Of a DNA stretch of 64,000 bases, positions 16,830 through 31,142 are shown one piece after another (positions within the stretch are counted from its first letter, which is position 1; every line of letters begins with the position of its first letter). Source of the stretch: Marinomonas communis (lineage in GTDB: Bacteria; Pseudomonadota; Gammaproteobacteria; Pseudomonadales; Marinomonadaceae); assembly GCF_004363305.1 (NCBI RefSeq), contig NZ_SNZA01000001.1, positions 893,134 to 957,133 of the forward strand, read 5' to 3'. The position numbers and the translations under genes are program-made. The notes beneath the pieces were generated by a model, which was given only the letters and a program-made list of their open reading frames with translations, was not told the origin of the DNA and did not search any database.

Positions 16830-17432
16830 ATGTCATCGATGATGAAAAACATACTTGCTTACGCGGATCTTTTCCTGGGTTACCTCACGTCAGTCCTGAT
16901 GCGAGTGCTCTTATATGGACTGACCGCAATATTCACGCTTGCAGCGATACTTGTTGTACTGATTGGCCCATTTGAGGGACGCTTTGATTTAAACGAACTG
17001 GATAATTTGGAACTCGTGGTACAAATTGTGTTTGTTTTAATCACCGTTCGTTTCTTTAAACGTAGCAAATCGGAAGGCATAGCTTTCTGGCCATGTTTAA
17101 AATCTTACTGTTTCATATCCACTTTTTTGAGCATTCTATTTCTAGCTGCCATAGCTTTAGCTTTTTTGATGCTCCTCAAGCAAGAAGGTGAGATTGGTCG
17201 AAGTGACTTATATAGGCTTCCAGATTTTAAATATTTTTTATTCAGTGGCCTTTATCTTTTGGTATTACATGCTTTTACGCCTTTACCAAAGTTAAACCTG
17301 ATTAAAAAGACCGTTAAAAAACAAGATTCAGAAAATAACGATTCAGATTGGCTAGAGTCAGATCACGCTAATTTCTTCGCCGACAGCGCAGGCAATACTC
17401 GTACAAATTCAATGGACTCGGGCAATAGTTAA
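16830..17432 (+). CDS. Four-helix membrane protein of unknown function
   Basis: This ~200-residue protein has four hydrophobic segments, seen around VLLYGLTAIFTLAAILVVLIG, LVVQIVFVLITVRFF, FLSILFLAAIALAFLMLL and YFLFSGLYLLVLHAF. The C-terminal ~45 residues are hydrophilic and Asp/Ser/Asn-rich. In-frame starts exist at TTG 16782 and ATG 16806; ATG 16830 is preferred for the nearby AGAGA element, with low certainty. No family is recognised. Base use is AT-richer than the hsd genes. It lies 13 nt before the Rap1a-like gene, so the two probably share a transcript. Confidence 0.6.
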   Translation: MSSMMKNILAYADLFLGYLTSVLMRVLLYGLTAIFTLAAILVVLIGPFEGRFDLNELDNLELVVQIVFVLITVRFFKRSKSEGIAFWPCLKSYCFISTFLSILFLAAIALAFLMLLKQEGEIGRSDLYRLPDFKYFLFSGLYLLVLHAFTPLPKLNLIKKTVKKQDSENNDSDWLESDHANFFADSAGNTRTNSMDSGNS

Positions 17433-17445
17433 AAAGGATTTTAAA

Positions 17446-17823
17446 ATGTTAACACGCACGCGAATTTTATGGCTTGTTCTATCTTTGGTATTGAGTGGCA
17501 ATGCTCTTGCGCGAAACGATATTCCTCTAGAAAATGGTGCAGATTTTTTGATAGATGCTTGCCGTGAAGTAGTGGACATCTATGATGCAAGAGGCAAGGA
17601 AAAACTTCTGGCCGCTCAGCGTACATCACTGGCCGAAGGGATCCGAACGGGCTACTGCTTAGGTGTCATCGTGCAATACCGTAAAAATGCCGGATATTGT
17701 CGTTATTCAAAGCGAAATGTTTTGGAAATGGCGCAAGCCATAGCCAACAACAATTTAACTGTCTCACAACTGCGCAGAACCTCATCGTCGGACCTTTTAG
17801 AGGAAGCCTACTGTGGACTCTAG
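17446..17823 (+). CDS. Secreted Rap1a/Tai-like small protein
   Basis: This 125-residue protein has a signal peptide (MLTRTRILWLVLSLVLSGNALA) and four cysteines: one in DACREV, one in GYCLGVI, one in GYCRY and one in AYCGL. The GYCxG motif, paired Cys pattern and length resemble the Rap1a/Tai fold, best known as periplasmic immunity proteins against type VI secretion amidases. Many Rap1a-like proteins occur outside such loci, and no type VI genes are visible here, so immunity is not assumed. AAAGGA precedes the ATG. Its last 11 nt overlap the next gene, suggesting coupled translation. Confidence 0.6.
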   Translation: MLTRTRILWLVLSLVLSGNALARNDIPLENGADFLIDACREVVDIYDARGKEKLLAAQRTSLAEGIRTGYCLGVIVQYRKNAGYCRYSKRNVLEMAQAIANNNLTVSQLRRTSSSDLLEEAYCGL

Positions 17824-18481
17824 ATACTATAGTATTCCAGACGCGCTGAGGCTTCTGTTTGGCTCAGATATTCTGAGCCAAACACCCTCATTGAGAAATA
17901 AAGCTAACTCTTTTTTGCGCAACGATCTTTTAACCTTTAAAGAGGAATTGATTGTTCATAAGAAGAGCAAGTTAATTCCTGAAACAGAGCTAAATACCTT
18001 GTTCAATGCCATGCTATTGAGCTCTATTTTCGCTGACCCAAAGGAAGTGAAATCAATTTTCTGCGAGCCAGATAAGCGTCAGCAATGCACTGAGATAGTC
18101 ACAGCCATGTTCACCCGCCAGCACTCGCTCGCGGGGATTGCGCTTTCAAGTCAGAACACATCTGAGTTTGTGGCCTGTCTTGAGGGCGACTTTGATCTCA
18201 GAGCTGCACGTTTACCCAATCCATTTAAAACCTTGCCGCAGGCATCGCTTGGCAGCAATACATCACTGCTACGAGTGCTACTGGCTCAAGCCGCGGCGCT
18301 GGAGCCGATGGACAGTATTTTGATGAAGTACTTAGATGGCGAATGGTTGGAAGCAAAACGCTTAATCAATCAGTTAGACATGACTGCGCCAGGTGTGGCG
18401 GAGCTAAAGACAGAAATCGATCGTAAAATCCGTGACGCTGAAGAGGTCGACGACCTACTCGACTTTATGCTCAAGCTCTAA
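17813..18481 (+). CDS. Unknown helical protein overlapping the Rap1a-like gene
   Basis: This 222-residue, mostly helical, soluble protein starts at GTG inside the end of the preceding gene (11-nt overlap). No signal peptide or membrane segment is seen. Four cysteines occur (FCEP, QCTE and others), and the C-terminus is acidic-helical (RDAEEVDDLLDFMLKL). The stretch LLRVLLAQAAALEPMD followed by YLDGEWLEAKRLI faintly recalls HDOD-type helical bundles, but this is too weak to call. Overlap with a secreted-protein gene suggests a paired function. Confidence 0.6.
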   Translation: MDSRYYSIPDALRLLFGSDILSQTPSLRNKANSFLRNDLLTFKEELIVHKKSKLIPETELNTLFNAMLLSSIFADPKEVKSIFCEPDKRQQCTEIVTAMFTRQHSLAGIALSSQNTSEFVACLEGDFDLRAARLPNPFKTLPQASLGSNTSLLRVLLAQAAALEPMDSILMKYLDGEWLEAKRLINQLDMTAPGVAELKTEIDRKIRDAEEVDDLLDFMLKL

Positions 18482-18572
18482 TCGCTTAAAAAGATAATTT
18501 TTTAGAAAAACGCTATGTTGTGCAATGCACAAGTTGAATCTAGATCTCGTCAACAACGAACGGAGATTCAAC

Positions 18573-19133
18573 ATGACTACATTAACTTCAGCAACATCGA
18601 CTATTCAAAACCAATTCGAACAGAAACCGTTCACACCGGTATCAGATTTAAATACAGCGGATGGTATTAATAGGTCAGTGCATGCGATTAATTTTGAGAA
18701 GCTCAAATGGAAGCTTACCCAGTCAGCCGAGGCAACTTGGAGCAATGAAATGTGTGACTTTGCAGAGTTAGAGTACAAGAAGTTTCTAACATTGAAGCTT
18801 CTCTACCCAAAAGTCTCTTTTGTACCAAGTAAGATCGTGGATAAGTTTTGGCACGAGCATATATTAGATACAAAATCTTATGCCGAAGACTGTATGACAC
18901 TATTTGGCTCGTTTCTTCACCATTATCCGTATTTTGGTATTTATGGTGATGATGATCAGCAAGCCTTACAGGCTGCTTTTGATAAGACGATTAAGTTGTA
19001 CGAAGCTCACTTTGGGCCATATCCAACCGAGGAGCTTTTTGGGTCCCAGAGTGTAAATGCAGCAAGATGTGCAGATCACGCCTGCCATGTTCCAAGTACT
19101 TGCGCATGCCGTGTCCCAGGTGCGTGCAAATAG
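18573..19133 (+). CDS. Glycine-rich-domain-like (DUF1399-type) protein with Cys-rich tail
   Basis: This 186-residue protein contains the signature VDKFWHEHILDTKSYAEDC followed by LFGSFLHHYPYFG, typical of bacterial proteins related to the N-terminal region of glycine-rich-domain (GRDP/DUF1399) proteins. The last ~22 residues are unusual: five cysteines arranged as two C-[HR]-V-P-x-x-C motifs (CHVPSTC and CRVPGAC). A longer frame from 18525 exists, but ATG 18573 has a good GGAGA ribosome site. The gene has its own 91-nt upstream gap and a strong hairpin downstream. Function is unknown; the tail could bind metal, form disulfides, or be a modified peptide. Confidence 0.65.
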   Translation: MTTLTSATSTIQNQFEQKPFTPVSDLNTADGINRSVHAINFEKLKWKLTQSAEATWSNEMCDFAELEYKKFLTLKLLYPKVSFVPSKIVDKFWHEHILDTKSYAEDCMTLFGSFLHHYPYFGIYGDDDQQALQAAFDKTIKLYEAHFGPYPTEELFGSQSVNAARCADHACHVPSTCACRVPGACK

Positions 19134-19144
19134 GCTGAAGCCAT

Positions 19145-19183
19145 TTTAGACAGCACCATATTATTGAGCGGGTGCTGTCTAAA
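19145..19183 (+). terminator. Strong hairpin ending the accessory island
   Basis: A 13-bp perfect stem (19145-19157 with 19171-19183) with a 13-nt loop follows the Cys-tailed gene. No immediate T run follows, so termination could need Rho or the stem may act in both directions. Confidence 0.6.
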
Positions 19184-19346
19184 CCGATGTTATTTTCTAA
19201 ACCTCGACAAACACTTTATTTAGCGAATTGAATAGTAGCTATAAGATCACCATTTATAGCGCTATACTCGTTTCTCCAGTTGCAAAAATGAACTATCAGT
19301 GCATCTCTAAACCGGCTTACAGACAGTATTTTTAAGGCTTTATCTA

Positions 19347-21035
19347 TTGTCATCAATATCTCAACACAAACGTTTATCGAGCCGATACTTACTTTTGTCT
19401 CTAGTTGTGGCATTGGTTCCATTATTTATATTTGCCGGTCTTTATGATCGATACTTTGACCAGCTAGTTTCAAAAATTACAGATGGGCGAATCAATACTC
19501 AAGTTGCCGCGGTTCAAAATGAGTTTCGCGTTCATCTAAGAGAGCGCTTGTATCAACTTGATGTACTTGCGGATGAGCTTGATTCTCCCGAAATTTTTCA
19601 AAAAGATGGTAAACAAAATCTTCCTGAGGAACTGGAAGCGCTTTTGCGGTTACAGACTGACCTTAATAATGTTTACGGTATTGCCTTTTTTGATGCTGAA
19701 AAGCAGTTTCTTTGGAGTTTCCCTGAGTACGCCTATTCACCGGACAGGTATCACGCAGTTCAGCCTTACAAAACACAGTTTGAACAGGCGGATATTTTAG
19801 GGCCGGAAGAGTTTACCTTTGATCGACCAAGCTCTGTCCTACTTGTTAAACCAATTATCGGTTTATCCGGTAATAACAAAGCGCCCTATTTAGGGCTTAT
19901 TCTGCGTTTCAACTCGTTAGCAGCAATCCCAAAATCGTTGGGCACGGATGGGATTTTTACTCCTTATTTAGGCGTGCCAGGTAACCGCATCTTTGACATC
20001 GTAGGTCAGCCAGTTCAGAGCATAGACCAATACGCTCAAACGTTTGACTTGTTCCCAGGCTGGTCTATCAAGCTTAAACAAAACGAAGTGCTTGCTGCAC
20101 CGCCTAGCGCAACCCTTAGATATTGGTTGATTGGCTTGGTGATATTAACAGCAGCTTGCCTTCTACTTGTTCATTGGTTTATTTCCAAACGCTTGAATCG
20201 TCAATTAGACACGCTGATTGTGGGTATTGAACGAGTTGCTTCAGGAGATCTCAAATCTCCAGTACCAACTCAGCCGGGCACAGAGCTTGATCGACTAACG
20301 ATTGCGATTGAGAAAATGCGTTCTCAACTTAATCAAGTGATTCAATCAAATGTTGAAATGGAAAGGCGAGCCTCTCTCGGGAATCTAGCAGCAGGGCTGG
20401 CTCATGATATCCGCAACCCGCTTAACATCGTTGGGATCACGACCAAAGCATTATTAAAAAGAGAGCTTAATGATGAAAAAAAAGAAATGCTCTCTATGGT
20501 CAAGGATGAACTTGGACGGGTAAATCGAGTGATTGACAACTTATTAAACTTTGCTCGACCAACGCCTCCTAAACAAGAAGTTGTAATATTGGCTGAGGAG
20601 CTTCAGCTGGTTTCGAACCTTTTAAACGCAACAGTACACAAACATAAGGCTAACTTGCGCATAGAGTGTGACGCGACATTAGAACTGTTAGCAGACCCTA
20701 CTCACTTGCATCAGGTATTAATAAACCTTGTCTTAAATGCTATCCAGTCTTTTAATGGTCAGGGCGGTAACGTGACCATTAATGCCAAACGTGAGCCTGA
20801 AGAGTTGGTCATCGCCGTTATTGATAATGGTCCGGGTATAGACTCGTCACATCTTGAGCGGATTTTCGAACCCTTTTACACCACGAAATCCACCGGCACA
20901 GGTCTTGGTTTAGCCATTTGTCAGGCTCTTATTCAAGCCAACCATGGACGGATGGAGATTCACTCTACCAGTGAAGGCACCACTGTATGTTTAAAATTCC
21001 CAATACAAGCAAAGTTAGACGATACTTATGAGTAA
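19347..21035 (+). CDS. Membrane sensor histidine kinase (NtrB-like output)
   Basis: This 562-residue kinase has a membrane segment near residues 13-31, a ~230-residue periplasmic sensor, a second membrane segment (~257-280) and a HAMP-like linker. The phosphoacceptor motif is LAGLAHDIRNPLN with His about residue 353. The ATPase lobe has VLNLVLNAIQ, DNGPGI and GTGLGLAI. The start is a TTG; no other plausible start is in reach, and a TAAGG element lies ~11 nt before it. It overlaps the regulator by 8 nt. Presumably it reads ligand through the binding protein encoded two genes downstream and phosphorylates the sigma-54-type regulator; that wiring is inferred from order. Confidence 0.88.
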   Translation: MSSISQHKRLSSRYLLLSLVVALVPLFIFAGLYDRYFDQLVSKITDGRINTQVAAVQNEFRVHLRERLYQLDVLADELDSPEIFQKDGKQNLPEELEALLRLQTDLNNVYGIAFFDAEKQFLWSFPEYAYSPDRYHAVQPYKTQFEQADILGPEEFTFDRPSSVLLVKPIIGLSGNNKAPYLGLILRFNSLAAIPKSLGTDGIFTPYLGVPGNRIFDIVGQPVQSIDQYAQTFDLFPGWSIKLKQNEVLAAPPSATLRYWLIGLVILTAACLLLVHWFISKRLNRQLDTLIVGIERVASGDLKSPVPTQPGTELDRLTIAIEKMRSQLNQVIQSNVEMERRASLGNLAAGLAHDIRNPLNIVGITTKALLKRELNDEKKEMLSMVKDELGRVNRVIDNLLNFARPTPPKQEVVILAEELQLVSNLLNATVHKHKANLRIECDATLELLADPTHLHQVLINLVLNAIQSFNGQGGNVTINAKREPEELVIAVIDNGPGIDSSHLERIFEPFYTTKSTGTGLGLAICQALIQANHGRMEIHSTSEGTTVCLKFPIQAKLDDTYE

Positions 21036-22374
21036 CCTAAGCGTTTTGGTCATTGATGATGAACAGAATTTAGTACGAAGTATTAAGTTCTCTTTGAATA
21101 ATCAAGATATTGAACTCTCAGCCGCTTTTACAGGGCAAGAAGGGATAACCGCATTTGAGCAATTAAACCCCGACTTAATTCTGCTCGATTTAGGCTTACC
21201 AGATATGTCTGGGCTTGAGGTATTAAGCCATTTAAGACAGCTTTCTCCAACAACGCCCGTGATCATGATCTCTGCTCATGGTGATACTAGAACAGCAGTT
21301 AAAGCTGTCAAAGAAGGCGCTGTGGACTACATTACTAAACCCTTTGATGTAGATGAGCTTGAACTGCTGATGCTCAGAACCGCTGAGCAGCAAAGAGCCA
21401 CCAAAGAACTCGCCTTTCTTAGAAATAAAGATGATCTAAACAATCAGATCATTGGCCAGTCGACGAAAACTAACCTGCTTAAGAAAATGATCACTCAGGT
21501 TGCCAACAGTGCCGCCAGAACTATTTTAATTCAAGGCCCATCTGGGACTGGAAAAAGCATGGTAGCAAAGAGTATCCATAATCAGCGTTTTAGCAATGCT
21601 CCTTTTATCGAAGTCAATTGTGCTGCATTGCCTGAACACTTGATTGAAGCGGAACTTTTTGGCGCAGAAAAAGGTGCTTATACCGGGGCAACATCTACAC
21701 GTGATGGCCTCATTGCGCTGGCAGATGGTGGTACGTTATTTTTAGATGAAATTGGCGAAATGCCGCTTAATATTCAAGCAAAGCTACTGACGTTTTTAGA
21801 ACAAAGAACCTTTCGTCCTGTTGGAGCAGGAAAAGAGCGAAAGTCGAATACAGTCATCATTGCAGCAACGAATCAGAACCTTGCTGAACAAGTATCAGAA
21901 GGTCGTTTTAGACAAGACCTATTTTATCGGCTGAATGTAGTACCTGTTGAAATTCCGGCGTTGCAAGAACGCGCCACGGACATTCCAATCCTTGTTGAAC
22001 ATTTCTCTAGCCTCATGGCTCAAAATGAAAGCTGCCAACCAGTGATCATGACACCGGAAGTCATGATGTCATTACAACAGTATGCTTGGCCCGGAAATAT
22101 TAGGGAACTAAAGAACCTAATCGAGCGATTAACGATCTTGTACCCAGGTGAACACATAACTTGTTCGTTATTACCTAACGAAATCCTACCGAAAACTCCA
22201 ACATTGCATTCACCGCAAACAAGTTACGATGAGCAGGTTGAGTCAAAAGAAAAGGAAGTCATTTTACAGGCGCTCAGTTCGACTCAAGGAAAAAAAGGCT
22301 TAGCGGCTGAGAAGCTCGGCATTTCAAGACATGCCTTAAAAAGGCGGATGCAACGCTTAAATTTAGACCTTTAA
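21028..22374 (+). CDS. Sigma-54-dependent response regulator (NtrC family)
   Basis: This 448-residue regulator has a receiver domain with phosphoacceptor Asp near residue 54 (LILLDLGLPD) and a switch Lys in YITKPFD. The AAA+ domain has a Walker A motif (GPSGTGKSM), ELFGAEKG and the sigma-54 contact loop as GAYTGA (~216-221), a Tyr variant of GAFTGA. It ends with a Fis-type helix-turn-helix (GLAAEKLGISRHALKRRMQ). It is translationally coupled to the kinase. A canonical sigma-54 promoter with two upstream palindromes lies 1.4 kb downstream, before the dehydrogenase genes, and is its likely target. Confidence 0.92.
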   Translation: MSNLSVLVIDDEQNLVRSIKFSLNNQDIELSAAFTGQEGITAFEQLNPDLILLDLGLPDMSGLEVLSHLRQLSPTTPVIMISAHGDTRTAVKAVKEGAVDYITKPFDVDELELLMLRTAEQQRATKELAFLRNKDDLNNQIIGQSTKTNLLKKMITQVANSAARTILIQGPSGTGKSMVAKSIHNQRFSNAPFIEVNCAALPEHLIEAELFGAEKGAYTGATSTRDGLIALADGGTLFLDEIGEMPLNIQAKLLTFLEQRTFRPVGAGKERKSNTVIIAATNQNLAEQVSEGRFRQDLFYRLNVVPVEIPALQERATDIPILVEHFSSLMAQNESCQPVIMTPEVMMSLQQYAWPGNIRELKNLIERLTILYPGEHITCSLLPNEILPKTPTLHSPQTSYDEQVESKEKEVILQALSSTQGKKGLAAEKLGISRHALKRRMQRLNLDL

Positions 22375-22385
22375 CTGAATGTACT

Positions 22386-23657
22386 ATGCAAAATAAAAAT
22401 AAATTTAAACTTCGTATTAACAATACGCTTTGTCTATTAATGGCTTGCTTACTTTCGCAAAGCACCCTTGCAGAAACAAGGTTAGGTTCTGCCGATGAAT
22501 ACGCGACCAAAGTAGGCTGTTTATTTCCTATGACAGGTCGTGGCGGCCTTTATGGACACGATAGTTTGATTGGTATTCAAATCGCTTTGGAAAAGATCGC
22601 CTCTTCCCCGCGTTATCCAGAACTTCAGGTATTAATTGAAGATTCACGTTCGAAAGCGTCTCGAGCGACTCGTATTGCGCGAACGTTTGCCCAAGAGGAA
22701 GGCGCTCGTTTCTTATGTGGCGTCGTTAACTCTTCTGTTGCGATACAGGTCGCGCAAGTAGCGAGCCAAGAGGAAGTGTTTTTTATTGGAACTGATCATG
22801 CTTCATCACGCTTAACAGAGCCATTAACCAATCCTTATTACTTTCGGCTCAGTAATAACACCAAACAAAGCATGCTAGCGGGTGCTAAATACATTAAGGA
22901 GCATCTACTCCCTAAGACGAATAACCGCCCTATTCGTATTTCCTACATAGCGCCAGATTACGAATACGGTTACTCCGTCTGGCAGGACCTCACCAGCGCT
23001 TTGGACGAATTAAACGTACCGTATCAAATCGTAACGACATTATGGCCTCGATTGTACGAAGCAAATTATTCACCTTTTATACGAGCTTTAATGGAGCAAC
23101 CGACAGATCTTATTGTTAACTCTATGTGGGGAGGTGACCTCGTTGCCTTTATTCAACAGGCAAAAAGTACTCCCCTGTTTGATCATTCTGCGTTCGCAAA
23201 CTTTGATACGGGGGGGAATTACGAAGTCCTTGCCGCATTGGGCGACGACATGCCAGATGGTTTGATCATGTCCTCCCGACATCACACCAATTGGCCAAGA
23301 ACAGAACTAAACCACTGGTTTGTTGAACGATTTAAAGCGATAAGCGGTCGCTATCCTTCTTATGCCGCGGAAGGCGCCTACTCGGGGCTAATGGCCATTG
23401 CGGAATCCCTTGCGATTGCCGGAACCAATGCCAGTAACGATACAATAAGAAAGACTCTGGAGCAGCTTGTACTCCATCTGCCGGAGGACCCCATTGGTTA
23501 CTCATCTTTTATGGATGAGCGAACACACCAAATTCAGCAAGTCATTGCGATAGGCACAACTCAAGCTAATTCAAATCAGCTCCCAGCCAAAAAACTGCTT
23601 GGCGATTGGGTTGTCTATTATCCTAGTCGCTTCAGCCCATTTAAAAATAAAGAATAA
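22386..23657 (+). CDS. Periplasmic ligand-binding protein, branched-chain amino-acid/amide type
   Basis: This 423-residue protein has a signal peptide (ending LLSQSTLA) and a type-I periplasmic binding fold of the LivJ/AmiC (Peripla_BP_6) class: CLFPMTGRGGLYGHDSLIGI at the start, GVVNSSVAIQVAQVA and YEYGYSVWQD in the middle. No ABC permease or ATPase genes follow, so it probably delivers ligand to the adjacent kinase rather than to a transporter. It begins 11 nt after the regulator stop and should be co-transcribed. The conserved FxGTDHASSRLTE segment lies in the pocket region, but the ligand cannot be read. Confidence 0.82.
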   Translation: MQNKNKFKLRINNTLCLLMACLLSQSTLAETRLGSADEYATKVGCLFPMTGRGGLYGHDSLIGIQIALEKIASSPRYPELQVLIEDSRSKASRATRIARTFAQEEGARFLCGVVNSSVAIQVAQVASQEEVFFIGTDHASSRLTEPLTNPYYFRLSNNTKQSMLAGAKYIKEHLLPKTNNRPIRISYIAPDYEYGYSVWQDLTSALDELNVPYQIVTTLWPRLYEANYSPFIRALMEQPTDLIVNSMWGGDLVAFIQQAKSTPLFDHSAFANFDTGGNYEVLAALGDDMPDGLIMSSRHHTNWPRTELNHWFVERFKAISGRYPSYAAEGAYSGLMAIAESLAIAGTNASNDTIRKTLEQLVLHLPEDPIGYSSFMDERTHQIQQVIAIGTTQANSNQLPAKKLLGDWVVYYPSRFSPFKNKE

Positions 23658-23664
23658 AACCAGC

Positions 23665-23728
23665 GAGCGGAATCCGCTCACAATTTCATGTTAATCATGA
23701 GCGGATTCCGCTCATGATTAACATGAAA
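23665..23728 (+). promoter_or_regulatory. Paired palindromes, probable upstream activator sites
   Basis: Two near-identical 15-bp palindromes occur: GAGCGGAATCCGCTC (23665-23679) and GAGCGGATTCCGCTC (23699-23713 core). The second is the centre of a perfect 45-nt palindrome with 22-bp arms and a 1-nt centre (23684-23728). Centres are 34 bp apart, about three helical turns, and lie about 141 and 107 bp before the predicted sigma-54 start site. This is the geometry of NtrC-type enhancer sites. A terminator role for the preceding gene is possible, but no T tract follows. Confidence 0.7.
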
Positions 23729-23786
23729 CACCATATAAAAATAATTTTTCCCTTTAATATCAATGCAGTAACAAAACTTACAAAAC

Positions 23787-23802
23787 TGGCACCACCTTTG
23801 CT
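23787..23802 (+). promoter_or_regulatory. Sigma-54 (-24/-12) promoter
   Basis: TGGCAC (23787-23792), a 5-nt spacer and TTGCT (23798-23802) match the consensus exactly, including invariant GG and GC. Transcription should start near 23813. Downstream are the GabD-like and iron-alcohol-dehydrogenase genes; upstream are activator-like palindromes and a sigma-54-type regulator gene. Confidence 0.88.
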
Positions 23803-23825
23803 ATCTCACCTTTAGTACTGCGATC

Positions 23826-23894
23826 AGTGCGCTCATTTAAGATAAATCAACATTCATAGTACTGCTCAATCGTGAATGTTGACTGAAGCGCACT
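23826..23894 (+). promoter_or_regulatory. Nested stem-loop in the 5' leader
   Basis: In the predicted ~160-nt leader, an outer 8-bp stem (23826-23833 with 23887-23894) encloses an inner 10-bp perfect stem (23847-23856 with 23873-23882). A further GGCAAA...TTTGCC pair spans 23906-23940. The nested design suggests an RNA control element or stability structure; no known riboswitch class is recognised. Confidence 0.45.
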
Positions 23895-23971
23895 AGCAGT
23901 CGTTTGGCAAAATTAAGACTTGTTTATCACTTGCTTTGCCTACGAATCATAAAAATAAAGGTGTTATAACT

Positions 23972-25414
23972 ATGTATCTACATGATGCGTCTCTATTAAA
24001 AGAACGCTGCCTAGTAAACGGCCAATGGGTTTCCGCAGCGGATAATAAAACCATCCCTGTCACCAACCCTGCTAATGGCGAAATCATTGCTCATATCCCT
24101 CACCTAAGCGCAGACGAAGTGCCTTCGGTTATCGAAGCGTCACAAGAGGCTCAAAAAAAATGGGCGGCTATGGCAGCAAAAGAACGCTCAAAAATCCTGC
24201 GTCGCTGGTTTGATCTCATCATCGAAAATACCGATGACTTGGCAATGATCATGACCTCTGAACAAGGCAAACCGTTAACGGAAGCCAAAGGTGAAATTGG
24301 CTATGCCGCTTCTTTCGTTGAATGGTTTGCAGAAGAAGCGAAACGCGTTTACGGTGACACAATCCCTGCCCCGGTGACAAATCAACGCTTAACTGTTATC
24401 CGACAGCCTATTGGTGTGACAGCCGCGATTACTCCTTGGAACTTCCCGGCAGCGATGATTACTCGTAAAGCGGCCCCAGCGCTGGCAGCAGGCTGCTCTA
24501 TGATTGTTCGCCCAGCCGACTTAACGCCTCTGACTGCTTTAGCACTTGCTGAATTGGCACAAAGAGCAGGCATTCCAGATGGCGTTTTCCAAGTGATTAC
24601 CGGCTCAGCTAGCAAACTTGGCAAAGTCTTAACAGATAGCAATGTGGTGACCAAACTTTCGTTCACTGGTTCAACAGAAGTGGGTCGTTTATTGATGGCT
24701 CAATGTGCGGACACCATTAAGAAGGTTTCCCTAGAGTTGGGTGGTAACGCGCCGTTTATTGTGTTTGACGATGCGGACCTTGATAAAGCTGTCGAAGGCG
24801 CTATGGCGTCTAAGTACCGTAATGCTGGACAAACCTGTGTGTGCGCAAACCGCATTTTAGTTCAACGCGGTGTTTACGATGCCTTTATTGCCAAACTTCA
24901 AGAGAAAGTGGCAGCACTGAAAATTGGTCATGGCATTGAAGATGGTGTCCAAATCGGACCGATGATTGAAGAAAAAGCCATCACCAAAGTAGAAGAGCAC
25001 ATTCAGGACGCGGTTTCTAAAGGTGCGAAGTTGATCCATGGTGGCGAGCGTCTAGGCGGTTTATTCCTTCAACCTTCGATCTTGGTGGATGTCACCAGCG
25101 ATATGAAAGTGGCGCAAGAAGAAACCTTCGGCCCGATGGCCCCAATCTTTCCATTTGATACAGAAGAACAAGCTGTTGCCATGGCAAACGACACCATATT
25201 TGGTTTAGCCGCTTACTTCTTTACTAAAGATCATGCGCGTAGTGTGCGCGTTTCTGAAGCCTTAGAGTACGGCATGGTAGGTCACAACACTGGGCTTATT
25301 TCCAACGAAGTTGCACCGTTTGGTGGTGTTAAACAGTCAGGCCTAGGACGTGAAGGCTCTAAGTACGGTATCGAAGAGTACTTGGAACTGAAATACATCT
25401 GCAGCGCTCTTTAA
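23972..25414 (+). CDS. NAD(P)-dependent succinate-semialdehyde dehydrogenase family (GabD-like)
   Basis: This 480-residue aldehyde dehydrogenase tracks E. coli GabD (482 residues) from end to end, with GVTAAITPWNFPAAMITRKA and KVSLELGGNAPFIVFDDADL. General base Glu is near 255 and catalytic Cys near 289 (GQTCVCANR). The start at 23972 has an AAGGTG ribosome site; the frame's earlier 12 codons lack one. One oddity stands out: the conserved Lys-Pro of the cofactor site is Arg-Pro here (IVRPADLTP, Arg near 180). It probably oxidises succinic or a related semialdehyde made by the following alcohol dehydrogenase. First gene behind the sigma-54 promoter. Confidence 0.88.
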   Translation: MYLHDASLLKERCLVNGQWVSAADNKTIPVTNPANGEIIAHIPHLSADEVPSVIEASQEAQKKWAAMAAKERSKILRRWFDLIIENTDDLAMIMTSEQGKPLTEAKGEIGYAASFVEWFAEEAKRVYGDTIPAPVTNQRLTVIRQPIGVTAAITPWNFPAAMITRKAAPALAAGCSMIVRPADLTPLTALALAELAQRAGIPDGVFQVITGSASKLGKVLTDSNVVTKLSFTGSTEVGRLLMAQCADTIKKVSLELGGNAPFIVFDDADLDKAVEGAMASKYRNAGQTCVCANRILVQRGVYDAFIAKLQEKVAALKIGHGIEDGVQIGPMIEEKAITKVEEHIQDAVSKGAKLIHGGERLGGLFLQPSILVDVTSDMKVAQEETFGPMAPIFPFDTEEQAVAMANDTIFGLAAYFFTKDHARSVRVSEALEYGMVGHNTGLISNEVAPFGGVKQSGLGREGSKYGIEEYLELKYICSAL

Positions 25415-25429
25415 CACGAGGAAGTCATT

Positions 25430-26596
25430 ATGTCTCAAGGTATCAAACCCTTTTCTTTTAATACTCCAGGCTCCATGCATGTTGAATGGGGCGGAGCCAA
25501 ACGTCTTGGTGAACTAGCGTCCGAATGGTTCCAAGAACGTAACGTTCTGCTTGTAACGGATAAGTTCCTGAGTGAAAGCGGTCTGTTGAACGAAACTAAA
25601 GCCTCTTTAGAAGCTCAAGGTTTCAGTATTTCCATTTTCGATGACGTAGTGGCGGATCCACCAGAACACGTCTTAATGGCCTGCGTAGATTTTGCAAAAG
25701 CCAATCAGACTGATTTGGTGATTGGCTTGGGCGGCGGCTCACCAATGGATATCGCTAAACTAGTGGCCGTTATGCTGACATCAGAGCAGCCATTGTCTGA
25801 GCTATATGGGATTGGCAAAGTACAGGGCAAGCGCGCACCGTTACTTCAAATTCCAACCACAGCAGGAACCGGTTCTGAAGTTACCAACATCACCATTTTA
25901 ACAACAGGTGAAACTACCAAGATGGGTGTGGTTTCTAAGCAGTTGTACGCAGATTATGTCTTACTAGATGCTGAGTTAACCATTGGTTTACCTTCCCTAC
26001 CGACCGCTGCAACGGGCATTGATGCCATGGTTCACGCGATTGAAGCGTACACGTCGGTACACCTAAAGAACCCTCTTTCTGATGTGCTGGCAAAAGAAGC
26101 ATTACGTTTGCTTAGCAAAAACTTGCTGACCGCTTGCCAAGAAGGCACTAACCGCGCAGCACGTGAAGCCATGCTATTGGGTGCCAACTTAGCAGGCCAA
26201 GCTTTTTCAAATAGCCCAGTCGCAGCCGTGCACGCTTTAGCTTACCCATTAGGTGGTCACTACCATTTACCGCATGGTTTAACCAATGCACTGATGCTAG
26301 GCCCTGTGCTTCGCTACAACATGAAAGAAGCTGCATCGCTTTACGCTGAGCTTGCTGACGTAGTACTGGATTCCCCTGAAGGAAACGAAAACAGTCGAGC
26401 AGAGCAATTCGTAGCCTTTATGCAAAACCTAATGAATGAGTCTGGCGCGCCACAACGACTACGTGATGTTGGGGTCACTGAAGAGAGCCTTCCAACACTC
26501 GCCAAAGATGCCATGCTGCAAACCCGTTTGCTTGGTAATAACCCTGTTCCAGTGACTGAAAGCGATGCCCTAAAACTGTATCAAGAAGCTTTTTAA
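25430..26596 (+). CDS. Iron-containing (group III) alcohol dehydrogenase
   Basis: This 388-residue enzyme has the nucleotide loop GGGSPMD and TTAGTGSEVT. Metal ligands fall at Asp ~198 and His ~202 (GIDAMVHAIEAYTS), His ~268 and His ~282 (VHALAYPLGGHYHLPHG), matching the family spacing. It starts 15 nt after the GabD-like gene with a GAGGAAG ribosome site. The family includes 4-hydroxybutyrate dehydrogenases; paired with a succinate-semialdehyde-type dehydrogenase, as in the Agrobacterium blc operon, this suggests hydroxyacid to semialdehyde to diacid oxidation. Substrate is inferred, not seen. Confidence 0.88.
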   Translation: MSQGIKPFSFNTPGSMHVEWGGAKRLGELASEWFQERNVLLVTDKFLSESGLLNETKASLEAQGFSISIFDDVVADPPEHVLMACVDFAKANQTDLVIGLGGGSPMDIAKLVAVMLTSEQPLSELYGIGKVQGKRAPLLQIPTTAGTGSEVTNITILTTGETTKMGVVSKQLYADYVLLDAELTIGLPSLPTAATGIDAMVHAIEAYTSVHLKNPLSDVLAKEALRLLSKNLLTACQEGTNRAAREAMLLGANLAGQAFSNSPVAAVHALAYPLGGHYHLPHGLTNALMLGPVLRYNMKEAASLYAELADVVLDSPEGNENSRAEQFVAFMQNLMNESGAPQRLRDVGVTEESLPTLAKDAMLQTRLLGNNPVPVTESDALKLYQEAF

Positions 26597-26643
26597 TTCA
26601 CTGAAACAATGTTCGTTTCTGCAATAAAAACGTGTAGCAACGC

Positions 26644-26666
26644 CCCTGCACCCCCTGGTTGCAGGG
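26644..26666 (+). other. Intercistronic hairpin
   Basis: A 7-bp GC-rich stem (26644-26650 with 26660-26666, 9-nt loop) lies in the 105-nt gap between the alcohol dehydrogenase and the permease. There is no T run. It may lower downstream expression or mark an mRNA processing point. Confidence 0.4.
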
Positions 26667-26701
26667 AACTTGAATTATTACAAAAATAATAGGAAATCAT
26701 C

Positions 26702-28069
26702 ATGAGTAAAGAACGTATTGATGGCCAAGAAACACCCTTTTGGTCTATGGGCCCTTTTAAGGTCCGCCTCCCGTTTGTCCACTACCGCATAGAATGGCCT
26801 GATTACTTCCAAGGCCTGCTTATGTGTGCAGTCGACCTTGCTGCCATCCCATTAATGACCGAGTTACTAGGCATGCCATTTGAAGTGGCCTTAGCGGTTG
26901 TTATGTTAAACGGCCTTTTCTACTTGTTACACCACTTGTTAGGTGACCCTGTTGTTCCTGGCTGGATTACTCCTGCAATTCCGCTATTGATGGCATACTG
27001 TACAACCTTCCCTGAAGGGCCTGAACGGATCCATGCCTTAATATCCTTCCAGCTCTTGCTCGGGATATTCTCGATATTTATCGGGGCATCTGGACTGGCT
27101 CACAAGGTGGTTTCGTTAATCCCCCAAGCCATCAAATCTGGGGTCATTATTGGTGCCGGCATTGCAGCAGTCATGGCTGTATTCAAAGTAGACGGCCGTT
27201 TTGATACTTACCCAATCACCATCACTCTTGCAGTGGGCATTGCGTTTTATGTGATTTTCTCGCGCCACTTTGCGCATTTAAAACAGAACAACGCTTTCTT
27301 TAACGTGATTGGTAAATTAGGTGTTTTCCCGATTGTTGCCTTAGCCATTGTTATTGCCCCTACCGTTGGCGAAACATCATGGCCAGACATCCAATGGGGC
27401 TTTTCTTCGCCTGATTTCGTTACACTTTGGAACGAGTACACTGTGTTTGGCCTTGGGATGCCGCCCTTAATGATGTTTTTAACTGCAATTCCTACGGTGT
27501 TAGCAGCTTATATTGTTCTATTCGGAGATGTATTACAAAGTCGAGCTATCTTGGAAGAAGCTGACCAAATTCGCAAAGACGAAAAAATTGACTATGATCC
27601 AGACCGCGCGCACATGATTTTTGGTGCACGTAACTCTGCCATGTCAATTTTAGGCCCTGATGTTGCTATGTGTGGTCCACTTTGGGCGGCGATGCACGTC
27701 GTGATCGTCGAGCGTTTCAGCCAAGGTAAGAAAGCCATGAAGTCCATCTTTGGTGGTGCTGGCTCTTTCCGTTGGGGTACTAATACGGGCTTGCTTTTCA
27801 TGCCAATCGTAACCCTAGTGCAACCAATTCTAGGGGTTGCGCTGGCACTAACGCTACTGATTCAAGGCTACGTATCGGTTCGAATCGGGGTAATGGAAGC
27901 ACGCTCACAACGAGACCTTGGTATTGCCGGTATTGTCGCGGCCGTTCTTGCCACACGAGGTGCCACATGGGCCTTTGCTGTCGGTGTTGTGCTTTGTATT
28001 TTGGTCTACGGACGTGATTTCTTCAAAGGCGAGAAAGACAAGACCTTTGTGAAAGACCAAGCTCAATAA
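26702..28069 (+). CDS. Multi-pass membrane permease, SLC23/DUF3360-like
   Basis: This 455-residue protein has roughly 12-14 hydrophobic segments and a soluble N-terminus (KVRLPFVHYRIEWPDYFQG) that recalls DUF3360-type membrane proteins. The core repeats (GVIIGAGIAAVMAVFKVDG, LGPDVAMCGPLWAAMH, FGGAGSFRWGTNTG) suggest a UapA/SLC23-SLC26-like fold used for nucleobases, organic anions or sulfate. It has an AGGAAA ribosome site and ends in a strong terminator, so it closes the sigma-54 operon. It probably imports the dehydrogenases' substrate. Family and substrate are uncertain; membrane nature is clear. Confidence 0.65.
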   Translation: MSKERIDGQETPFWSMGPFKVRLPFVHYRIEWPDYFQGLLMCAVDLAAIPLMTELLGMPFEVALAVVMLNGLFYLLHHLLGDPVVPGWITPAIPLLMAYCTTFPEGPERIHALISFQLLLGIFSIFIGASGLAHKVVSLIPQAIKSGVIIGAGIAAVMAVFKVDGRFDTYPITITLAVGIAFYVIFSRHFAHLKQNNAFFNVIGKLGVFPIVALAIVIAPTVGETSWPDIQWGFSSPDFVTLWNEYTVFGLGMPPLMMFLTAIPTVLAAYIVLFGDVLQSRAILEEADQIRKDEKIDYDPDRAHMIFGARNSAMSILGPDVAMCGPLWAAMHVVIVERFSQGKKAMKSIFGGAGSFRWGTNTGLLFMPIVTLVQPILGVALALTLLIQGYVSVRIGVMEARSQRDLGIAGIVAAVLATRGATWAFAVGVVLCILVYGRDFFKGEKDKTFVKDQAQ

Positions 28070-28111
28070 AGCTCCTAGCGCTATCGCGTTTAGGAAAAAT
28101 GCTAAAGATAA

Positions 28112-28147
28112 AAAATGCCCCAAGTGTTTCATCACTTGGGGCATTTT
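28112..28147. terminator. Bidirectional terminator
   Basis: A perfect 15-bp stem (28112-28126 with 28133-28147) with a 6-nt loop has A4 on the left and T4 on the right. It lies between the permease and the converging TRAP permease gene and can end both operons. Confidence 0.85.
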
Positions 28148-28169
28148 GTTATCACAATTTAATAGAACA

Positions 28170-30104
28170 CTAAGCAGACAGTAACCTTATTTTCTTACAT
28201 TGCGCCCCTAGATAGACGCCTAAGGCAATCAACAGTCCCATCCCAAACACTCTTAGAGTGATGACATTTGTGCTGAAGTCTGCAGCAGCTTCTGGCCAGG
28301 CAATTAGCAGCGCAGCCACGATAAAACCGCCTCGTTGAACCATGGTTAAATGGGTTCCTAGCCAACCAGAGAAGCCAATACTCATGGAAATGGTTGCTAG
28401 AGTGGCTAAAAAGATCGCCATGGTAATACTCAGTGAGTCACCAATCAGCAAAACCCCCGGCATGGTAACAAATAAGAACGGCACCAATAGTTTAACGAAG
28501 CCTAAGCGCATGGATTCTATTGCCGTCTCGTTAGCGTCCGCGCCAGAGATTGTCGCTGCCGCATAGGCTGCCAACGCGACAGGTGGTGTGATCGCTGAGA
28601 CCAGACCGAAGTAGAAAATAAACATATGCGCCGACAAGGTTTCCATTCCTAACTGCGTCATGGCTGGTGCGACTAAAACCGCCAGCAATAGATACGCTGC
28701 AGAGGTCGGTAGCCCCATACCAAGAATAAACGACGCCAACGCCGTCAGCAGTAATACGCCCCAAAGATTGCCATCGCCAAGCTCAATGATAAGGCCTGAC
28801 ACCATCAACCCCATACCCGTCAAGTTCAGGACACCAATCACTACCCCCGCTGAAGCCACCGCAGCGACAATTGGCAAGGTATTTAACAGAGTCTCTTTAC
28901 AAGATTGGATCAAGTCTACCCAATTAATTCGAGTAGATGCTTTCCAAGGCGAAATTAACAGTCCCACCACAATTCCAAGCACTGCCGCTTGTGTTGGCGA
29001 TTTGCCCGCAATCATCAGTCCCACCAAGGCGATTAAAGGCAACAACAGATAACTTTTAGCTTTTAGGGTCTCCATGAGCAAGCGCAGTCCCGCTTCATTG
29101 TCACGCTCAAGACCTAAACGCCCGGCTTCCAAACGAACAGAGATCATTAACGCCAAAATATACAGAAGAGCCGGCACCAGAGCCGCCAGAGCCACTTCTG
29201 CATAAGGGATACCGATCATTTCGGCCATCAAAAATGCTGCAGCCCCCATAACAGGTGGCATAATTTGTCCTGCAGAGGACGCCGCTGCTTCAATGGCTCC
29301 CGCAAGTTTCGGGCTGTAACCCACTCGCTTCATCAGTGGAATGGTGAATGTTCCCGTAGTCACTACGTTCGCTACCGCACTACCATTCAAAGACCCTAAG
29401 AGAGCACTCGATAATGCCGCCGACAACCCCGGTCCACCTTGAACACGGCCCGTTAACCCGCGTGCGATATCGACAAAAACTTCTCCGGTGCCAATCTTTG
29501 TCAAAATGGCACCAAACAACCCAAATAAGAAGATGTATTCAACCGCGACCCCCATAGGCACGCCGTAAACGCCCTCTGTTGATAACAACAAGGTTGACGT
29601 TAGGCGATTCAAGTCATAACCGCCGTGTCCATATTGCCCCGGTATTAAATAGCCAAAATGGGCATACAAAAACGCCAATGCCATCAAAACAACTAATGCC
29701 CAACCTACGGCAATTCGGACAAAGATGAACACGATCACAGCCAATGCTATAAATACCCATGTATCCGTAGGTATCGACATCGCGCCGCGCATGATGATGT
29801 CAATGTAAGAGTTCCAAAGATATGGGCCCGGTATCAAGGCGACCAATGCCAGTGCGTAAAAGACGACGCGTACGATTGGTGTTTTATAGCGTGATCCGTA
29901 CAACATCATCGCCGAGCAGGCGACCAATGAAAAAAACGATGAGCGTAAAAGTAAGGCAGTAATGCCTCCGTAATAGGCACCATAGATCACTAAACCTGCG
30001 ATACCGATAGCCAGAATACTGAATAGAAAAGAGACGGATAACTGCTCCTTGCGTCCAAGATGATCAGACGTAAGGAGCAGACTTTTGAGGCTTGTCTGCT
30101 CCAT
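28170..30104 (-). CDS. TRAP transporter fused permease (DctQM), TAXI type
   Basis: This 644-residue protein has about 16 membrane segments. The N-terminal third corresponds to the small DctQ subunit and the rest to DctM (FGAILTKIGTGEVFVDIARGLTGRVQGGPGLSAALSSALLGS region, then PPVMGAAAFLMAEMIG and GMGLPTSAAYLL). Fused QM permeases are the norm for TRAP systems with TAXI-type binding proteins, and one precedes it by 17 nt. TRAP systems are sodium-driven importers of small organic acids. A GGAGTCC element lies just before the ATG. Substrate is unknown. Confidence 0.9.
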   Translation of the reverse strand: MEQTSLKSLLLTSDHLGRKEQLSVSFLFSILAIGIAGLVIYGAYYGGITALLLRSSFFSLVACSAMMLYGSRYKTPIVRVVFYALALVALIPGPYLWNSYIDIIMRGAMSIPTDTWVFIALAVIVFIFVRIAVGWALVVLMALAFLYAHFGYLIPGQYGHGGYDLNRLTSTLLLSTEGVYGVPMGVAVEYIFLFGLFGAILTKIGTGEVFVDIARGLTGRVQGGPGLSAALSSALLGSLNGSAVANVVTTGTFTIPLMKRVGYSPKLAGAIEAAASSAGQIMPPVMGAAAFLMAEMIGIPYAEVALAALVPALLYILALMISVRLEAGRLGLERDNEAGLRLLMETLKAKSYLLLPLIALVGLMIAGKSPTQAAVLGIVVGLLISPWKASTRINWVDLIQSCKETLLNTLPIVAAVASAGVVIGVLNLTGMGLMVSGLIIELGDGNLWGVLLLTALASFILGMGLPTSAAYLLLAVLVAPAMTQLGMETLSAHMFIFYFGLVSAITPPVALAAYAAATISGADANETAIESMRLGFVKLLVPFLFVTMPGVLLIGDSLSITMAIFLATLATISMSIGFSGWLGTHLTMVQRGGFIVAALLIAWPEAAADFSTNVITLRVFGMGLLIALGVYLGAQCKKIRLLSA

Positions 30105-30121
30105 AGTGGACTCCTAATTAA

Positions 30122-31057
30122 TTACTGACTGGCTTCGTCGTAAAATGCTTTCGCGCCAGGGTGTAATGCAACCGGAGTATTCGGGGCACTGCTCAATTGA
30201 ATGTTTTTCGCCTGTGGGTGAACTTGGCTTAATTCATCTAGGTTAGAAAAAATCGCCTTGGTGATGTTATAAACTTTCGTTTGATCGTTTTTACCGCTGG
30301 TAAAGAGAATCGCAGGATCGTTGATCACCGTGACCGGTGCCGCAACATCTGGATACGTGCCTGACGCTAGCTGCGTCACTTGATAGAAAGGATATTTTTT
30401 GATCATGCTGTCGAGCTTCTCTACATCCGCAGACAGCAGTTTCATATCTGTTTGAGAGTCTAAGTCAATCAGTGATGAAGTGGGTGCACCTGCCAAGACA
30501 ACCGTTGCATCCACTTGTCCGTTAACAAGCGCTTTAACCCCTTCGGTGTAAGACAAAAAGCGTGGCGTAATGTCGCCAAACACACCATATTCTTCCAGTA
30601 GACGTGTCGCGATGACAGCAGCGTTACTTCCCGGAGGCCCCATGCTCACACGTTTGCCTTTCAAGTCATTGAAGCCATTTACGCCTGAACCATCTAACGT
30701 CGCCACCTGTAATACTGCAGGGTATAAGTAGGCAATCCCAGCAACGTCTAGCGCTCCGGTATTTTTAAAAGGGCCTTCGCCATTCTTCGCTTCAAATAAA
30801 GTTGAAGAGGAAGATAGACCTAACGTCATTTGGCCAGCTGCAACACGGTGATTATTTTCTACCGATGCGCCTGTCACTTCAGCTCGGGCAGTCGTGTCAT
30901 CCAAATGCTTGTTTAATGTTTCAGCTACCCCGGCGCCAATGACATAAAATAAACCGCCCGTGCCACCGGTACCGATGGAAATACGTTCAGCCGCCATAGT
31001 TAAAGAGCTTGCAAACGTGGCTGCAAATGCTGAGGCAAGAAGAAATTTCTTATTCAT
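30122..31057 (-). CDS. TAXI-family TRAP solute-binding protein
   Basis: This 311-residue protein has a signal peptide (MNKKFLLASAFAATFASSLTMAA) followed by the TAXI signature region ISIGTGGTGGLFYVIGAGVA. Downstream are DLKGKRVSMGPPGSNAAV and a C-terminal HPGAKAFYDEA. An ATG four codons upstream exists, but GGAGA sits ideally before 31057. It should hand an organic anion, often glutamate or 2-oxoglutarate in characterised relatives, to the fused permease. A tandem 11-bp repeat lies 86-107 bp upstream, a likely site for the adjacent OmpR-type regulator. Confidence 0.9.
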   Translation of the reverse strand: MNKKFLLASAFAATFASSLTMAAERISIGTGGTGGLFYVIGAGVAETLNKHLDDTTARAEVTGASVENNHRVAAGQMTLGLSSSSTLFEAKNGEGPFKNTGALDVAGIAYLYPAVLQVATLDGSGVNGFNDLKGKRVSMGPPGSNAAVIATRLLEEYGVFGDITPRFLSYTEGVKALVNGQVDATVVLAGAPTSSLIDLDSQTDMKLLSADVEKLDSMIKKYPFYQVTQLASGTYPDVAAPVTVINDPAILFTSGKNDQTKVYNITKAIFSNLDELSQVHPQAKNIQLSSAPNTPVALHPGAKAFYDEASQ

Positions 31058-31142
31058 GGTTGTCTCCATTTAACGATTATTTTTGTTATACAAATGGTGG
31101 TAAACGATCATTCATTCGCTTACTCGACGCTAAATTTATAAG

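Follow-up and report, generated by a model that had tools for sequence, protein, structure and literature searches.

A conserved six-gene cassette with twin palindromic boxes and a -24/-12 promoter in Marinomonas communis, predicted to sense and degrade 4-hydroxybutyrate

The window was a stretch of 64,000 nt of Marinomonas communis (assembly GCF_004363305.1, contig NZ_SNZA01000001.1, positions 893,134 to 957,133 of the forward strand). Among its open reading frames (ORF), six genes of the + strand formed a cassette at 19347-28069, in the order histidine kinase (HK), response regulator (RR), binding protein (PBP), aldehyde dehydrogenase (ALDH), iron-containing alcohol dehydrogenase (Fe-ADH) and permease. 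A preliminary description of this DNA had listed a kinase, an NtrC-type regulator, a PBP, two palindromes, a -24/-12 promoter, dehydrogenases, a permease and a terminator, and all were present where it had placed them:

19347..21035, + strand: sensor HK with HAMP, HisKA and HATPase domains; two membrane helices flank an extracytoplasmic domain of ~228 residues
21028..22374, + strand: NtrC/AtoC-type RR with Response_reg, Sigma54_activat and HTH_8 domains; D54 and the GAYTGA loop read from the sequence
22386..23657, + strand: PBP (Peripla_BP_6), N-terminus signal-peptide-like by eye; likely sensor partner
23664..23680, no strand: distal palindromic box CGAGCGGAATCCGCTCA; predicted regulator site
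23698..23714, no strand: proximal palindromic box TGAGCGGATTCCGCTCA; 82 bp separate its centre from the GG of the -24 element; predicted regulator site
23787..23802, + strand: -24/-12 promoter of the sigma-54 type TGGCACCACCTTTGCT, 11/12 match, GG-N10-GC spacing
23972..25414, + strand: ALDH of the succinate semialdehyde dehydrogenase (SSADH) family, Aldedh domain; open frame from TTG 23936
25430..26596, + strand: Fe-ADH, Fe-ADH domain; predicted 4-hydroxybutyrate dehydrogenase
26702..28069, + strand: NCS2/NAT-fold permease; predicted 4-hydroxybutyrate carrier
28112..28147, no strand: hairpin terminator, separating the cassette from convergent TRAP-TAXI genes

The RR start overlapped the HK end by 8 nt and the PBP began 11 nt past the RR, so HK, RR and PBP likely form an operon; the ALDH, Fe-ADH and permease genes likely share one transcript. 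The phospho-acceptor H353 of the HK was invariant across 14 aligned relatives. For the fold of the HK sensor domain, structure matches fell on the cytoplasmic half and no PDB sequence match was obtained at E ≤ 10; the extracytoplasmic domain was modelled as helices and strands. No ABC transporter genes were found among the ORF of 17000-31000, which leaves the PBP a local orphan, as had been claimed. The ALDH start was likelier at ATG 23972 than at TTG 23936, because AAAGG lies upstream of the former and most relatives start there.

The gap between the PBP and the first possible ALDH start (278 nt) contained both boxes and the -24/-12 element. The palindrome GAGCGGAATCCGCTC occupied 23665-23679 within the distal box, and a perfect palindrome of 45 bp (23684-23728), with GAGCGGATTCCGCTC at its centre, surrounded the proximal box. 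The promoter score of 11/12 was reached by 0/300 shuffles of the gap. Within the window TGGCACNNNNNTTGC had a single exact occurrence, and the -24/-12 motif with one mismatch was found 6 times against 6.56 expected; because this count was at chance, the motif alone was not significant window-wide and was rejected as evidence by itself.

A permease-seeded scan of the contigs of named genomes returned 37 loci, and the same six genes, in the same order and on one strand, were found in 13 of them, all from marine bacteria (L001-L011, L013 and L036; Marinomonas, Marinobacterium, Marinobacter and Oceanimonas), so that the composition, for which the preliminary description knew of no described counterpart, was not peculiar to this genome. 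Twin boxes and a -24/-12 element were present in 14/14 PBP-ALDH gaps (the window plus the 13 loci). Across these gaps the boxes matched TGAGCGG-N3-CCGCTCA at 10-14 of 14 positions with centres 32-34 bp apart, the nearer box lay 80-84 bp from the GG of the -24 element, and the -24/-12 elements scored 9-11 of 12. A box pair at that spacing was obtained in 0/500 dinucleotide shuffles for 12 of the regions and in 1/500 for the other two. Lack of conservation of the palindromes beside homologous promoters had been named beforehand as refuting the proposal, but they were kept in the window and in the 13 loci. The cassette is real and conserved. Its closest permease relatives were Marinomonas proteins (97%; 99% to M. 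ostreistagni), and the PBP was patchy within the genus (6/35 genomes, host included, at ≥52% identity). Many of the loci were close kin, as with six near-identical permeases of the Peribacillus group, and neighbours in unannotated loci were identified solely by similarity to 15 query proteins.

Both boxes described in advance as twin palindromes were thus conserved, but the 45-bp palindrome was not. It was rejected as the operator proper since its flanks were not conserved and the sister locus L001 retained just a 19-bp core; two sister sequences shared the core and diverged in the flanks, which makes the 45-bp palindrome a local extension. Its right flank looked like a copy of the left, for which template switching is a possible cause.

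The exact 15-mer box occurred at two places in the 3.85-Mb host genome, both in the cassette gap, and the genome had one RpoN (sigma-54) gene; with the boxes and promoter in every gap, this supported the proposal of a self-contained sigma-54 sense-and-degrade unit. The sole box with one mismatch elsewhere (C1:616331) had no twin and overlapped an open frame, and at ≤2 mismatches each strand had 8 matches, compared with 5 for a backward control, so near the control that further regulon members were not claimed.

Gene context of the permease was compared over 43 loci, the 37 from the contig scan and 6 of 8 plasmid hits. Control took three arrangements. An IclR regulator was present at 3 loci, the kinase-regulator-PBP set was found in the window, at 13 loci and in Telmatospirillum, and 17 loci had a single-chain sigma-54 activator. 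Of these 17 activators, the four of L016, L018, L019 and L031 were scanned and scored best, below cut-off, on PrdR; the remainder were identified through similarity to that of L019. A GG-N10-GC element scoring ≥9/12 was present in 32/32 regions whose activator is of the sigma-54 type and in 0/10 lacking such an activator (3 with IclR and 7 with no regulator recognised), with the threshold of 9 of 12 and the hand-set region ends fixed after the loci had been inspected. This count of 42 regions left out L062 and L063, and the genomes G028 (L064) and G053 (L080) were assessed separately. Taken singly, the promoters of L016 and L031 were weak, their scores being reached by 0.043 and 0.047 of shuffles. 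Promoter class tracks activator class. In Telmatospirillum (L032), which also had kinase, regulator and PBP relatives with the PBP gene adjoining the regulator gene, one variant box (TGTGCGG-N3-CCGCACA) preceded the promoter and there was no pair. In a tree of 43 permease rows, in which L037 (permease match in two pieces) was omitted and the joins of long-branch rows were unsure, four regulator labels needed 7 changes as against 21.3 in shuffles, which suggests that the core stayed stable and its regulators were swapped on a few occasions.

The ALDH scored above cut-off on the SSADH model TIGR01780 (734.7 bits; cut-off 646.35) and below cut-off on the GabD equivalog NF008415 (792.2 vs. 828). 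The only other SSADH above cut-off in the host genome adjoined a class-III aminotransferase gene, so gamma-aminobutyrate degradation likely has its own SSADH copy. Sulfoacetaldehyde or ethanol-type pathways were rejected, the SafD, SarD, ErcA and ExaC models all scoring below cut-off.

Within the fetched flanks, an Fe-ADH relative was found in 39/43 permease loci and an ALDH relative in 35/43; in L031 the alcohol dehydrogenase (ADH) lay ~4 kb from the permease on the opposite strand. An Agrobacterium plasmid grouped a lactonase, an Fe-ADH, an IclR regulator, an SSADH and the same permease, and the best solved match of its regulator was 3mq0, the blcABC repressor BlcR (E 4.4e-95). Thioclava and Terasakiispira had the arrangement IclR-SSADH-FeADH-permease. 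In 3/43 loci (L031, L032 and L061, of Anaerospora, Telmatospirillum and Fusobacterium vincentii) the permease accompanied a coenzyme A (CoA)-transferase and a member of the 4-hydroxybutyryl-CoA dehydratase family; the Anaerospora member matched 1u8v (E 3.8e-237), and the other two shared 83% and 73% identity with it. Both routes, oxidation to succinate and activation with CoA plus dehydration, start from 4-hydroxybutyrate, and because the lactonase, BlcR-like, SSADH and Fe-ADH contexts share that metabolite with the CoA-transferase and dehydratase contexts, 4-hydroxybutyrate was singled out as the ligand. Comparative context thus selected one of the ligands named in the preliminary description; another, butanediol, is possible as an upstream feeder. 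For Pseudomonas putida, a passage of PMC7090098 gives the Fe-ADH PP_2049 as required for growth on 4-hydroxybutyrate, and enzyme assays as having failed.

The permease had the NAT fold. In a Pfam search to E 10, no family was obtained at E ≤ 0.001, and the only match was PF16983 (E 0.16, below cut-off). At E ≤ 0.001 the unnamed family comprised at least 2062 proteins among 7997 candidates scored, and in the open-licence PMC literature no paper naming DUF3360 or PurTCp was found. Gene context points to 4-hydroxybutyrate as the predicted substrate rather than a nucleobase or ascorbate, and this carrier assignment is the newest part of the finding.

In G028, of the same genus (L064 3134-15218), the kinase, regulator and PBP were followed by twin boxes with a spacing of 33 bp and by a promoter that matched at 10/12 positions, TGGTACGAGTTCTGCT. 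Downstream of it were a second PBP, Liv-type permeases, an ATPase, an Fe-ADH (53%) and an SSADH (59%), so that a Liv-type ABC transporter occupied the place of the permease. This swap suggests that the window permease is the uptake system and the first PBP the sensor partner. In G053, of the same order as the host, a kinase-regulator-PBP set (L065 10778-15213) lay among other genes, and no ADH or SSADH relative was found beside it. The ABC transporters of both genomes had a PBP of their own, just 27% identical to the window PBP.

Taken with the context above, the six-gene unit, with its twin boxes and -24/-12 promoter, probably detects external 4-hydroxybutyrate and induces its own uptake carrier together with two dehydrogenases that yield succinate. 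The exported PBP would capture 4-hydroxybutyrate, or else its lactone or another precursor, and, judging from genetic linkage, would dock on the extracytoplasmic domain of the HK, which would then phosphorylate the RR. The boxes and their spacing were observed, as were the -24/-12 element and the RpoN gene; the RR would bind the boxes and activate sigma-54 polymerase at the element 82 bp away. The permease would import 4-hydroxybutyrate, the Fe-ADH would oxidise it to succinate semialdehyde, and the SSADH-family ALDH would convert the latter to succinate. More broadly, and at about even chances, this Pfam-less branch of the NCS2/NAT fold (Proteobacteria, Bacillota and Fusobacteriota) may be a dedicated 4-hydroxybutyrate transporter with operons mostly under sigma-54 control through differently built activators, marine Gammaproteobacteria using a three-part receptor (PBP, kinase and NtrC-type regulator) that would sense the compound outside the cell.

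Several observations weighed against this assignment. The Fe-ADH scored 225.2 bits on the 4-hydroxybutyrate dehydrogenase equivalog NF058672 (cut-off 500), and higher, yet below cut-off, on the ErcA, SarD and lactaldehyde reductase models; it is predicted to act like a 4-hydroxybutyrate dehydrogenase but is not filed as an NF058672 member. The ALDH of four Bacilli loci (L017, L024, L025 and L026) was just 35-36% identical, and this subgroup possibly serves another substrate. Brucella loci L014 and L015 had no ALDH relative nearby, and the permeases of L062 and L063 (about 40% identity) lay beside acyl-CoA synthetase and acyl-CoA genes; for the family at large, other short acids may be substrates. 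In G053 the twin boxes were ~25 kb away from the sensor set (L080 732-7968), with TGGCCCCGCATTTGCT downstream of them, and preceded a Liv-type operon that also encoded a zinc ADH and a hydrolase of the cyclase family; the G053 pathway may differ, and the regulator there may act at a distance. Lastly, the nearest solved relative of the permease, 7TAK (40% identical, NCS2/NAT fold), was deposited as 'PurT', a name that implies purines, whereas the context of the window permease implies 4-hydroxybutyrate. That the permease is a purine carrier sitting in the cassette by chance, as fold and name would allow, is nevertheless very unlikely given the Fe-ADH and ALDH relatives near most permeases and the three loci with dehydratase and CoA-transferase; there were also no purine genes among the annotated neighbours in five annotated plasmid stretches, and in G028 an ABC transporter replaced the permease.

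With the same anatomy and regulation, the signal and growth substrate might instead be gamma-butyrolactone, 1,4-butanediol or another omega-hydroxy acid, 4-hydroxybutyrate being at most an intermediate. A lactonase joins the set in L059, the sets of L016 and L080 are followed by a cyclase-family hydrolase that looks exported, and Fe-ADHs are promiscuous; but the window cassette lacked a lactonase or diol oxidase, and the dehydratase and CoA-transferase loci require the hydroxy acid itself, so this substitution was considered unlikely. It is also rather doubtful that the PBP serves a distant ABC system and that the HK's own domain is the direct sensor of the ligand. The size of that domain and its modelled fold would suit direct sensing, and Peripla_BP_6 proteins commonly serve Liv-type transporters; against this, the PBP gene came right after the regulator in the window, 13 relatives, G028 and G053 and was adjacent to it in L032, and the ABC transporters in G028 and G053 had a separate PBP.

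Pathway chemistry and regulatory design are each already known, from blcABC and from the NtrB/NtrC class. Passages of PMC3907764 and PMC4231840 give the blcABC pathway as 4-hydroxybutyrate to succinate semialdehyde to succinate. With blcABC/BlcR of Agrobacterium tumefaciens (formerly attKLM/attJ) the window shared the predicted chemistry, an SSADH and an iron ADH, and the Agrobacterium plasmid set of this kind carried a window-type permease. The operon of blcABC comes with the IclR-type repressor BlcR, a known sensor of the compound that acts inside the cell, whereas the window had a membrane two-component system and a sigma-54 promoter; blcABC also has the lactonase BlcC, and there was none among the six cassette products, the only ones looked at. 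With the NtrB/NtrC class (AtoS/AtoC) the window shared the kinase core, the regulator architecture (receiver, AAA+ sigma-54 domain and Fis-type helix-turn-helix) and, at the level of sequence, a pair of sites lying ~100 bp ahead of a -24/-12 promoter; DctB/DctD is a system of this class with twin upstream sites. The window added a PBP gene as third member, and its regulator and kinase scored below the cut-offs of the AtoC and AtoS models. LuxP/LuxQ and TorT/TorS are kinases reading a periplasmic binding protein, encoded with the kinase as in the window; unlike them, the window pair, whose docking is predicted, went together with a sigma-54 regulator of the NtrC type and an operon for catabolism. 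The 4-hydroxybutyryl-CoA dehydratase operons of anaerobes (L031, L032 and L061) adjoined the same permease family and use CoA activation and dehydration, whereas the window would oxidise through Fe-ADH and SSADH. In open-licence PMC papers, represented mostly by titles and abstracts, the combination of a binding protein as third sensory part with a NAT-fold carrier was not found.

If the assignment is correct, 4-hydroxybutyrate (GHB), which is of interest to medicine, forensics and bioplastics, would gain a predicted carrier, a predicted external sensor and a complete inducible promoter, and a large unnamed permease family would gain a testable substrate. The loci also present a single catabolic core under at least three types of regulator, the promoter class matching that of the activator.

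Loci L017 and L024-L026 had the order permease-ALDH-ADH, with no sigma-54 activator or promoter seen, and the ALDH of L017 was closest to the lactaldehyde dehydrogenase model. On a plasmid of cold-seep Fusobacteria (L060 3649-11404), a permease and an Fe-ADH lay near a glycyl-radical enzyme and its activator, which fits the 4-hydroxybutyrate pattern poorly. The PF04199 cyclase-family hydrolases of L080 (6880-7965) and L016 (14251-15303) had signal-like N-termini and were related to each other; they may hydrolyse lactones in the periplasm and so feed the pathway. Beyond the terminator and convergent with the cassette, a TRAP-TAXI transporter (fused permease and binding subunit) occupied 28170-31069 of the window, and relatives of both its genes were found downstream of the cassette in L001 alone among the thirteen six-gene loci.

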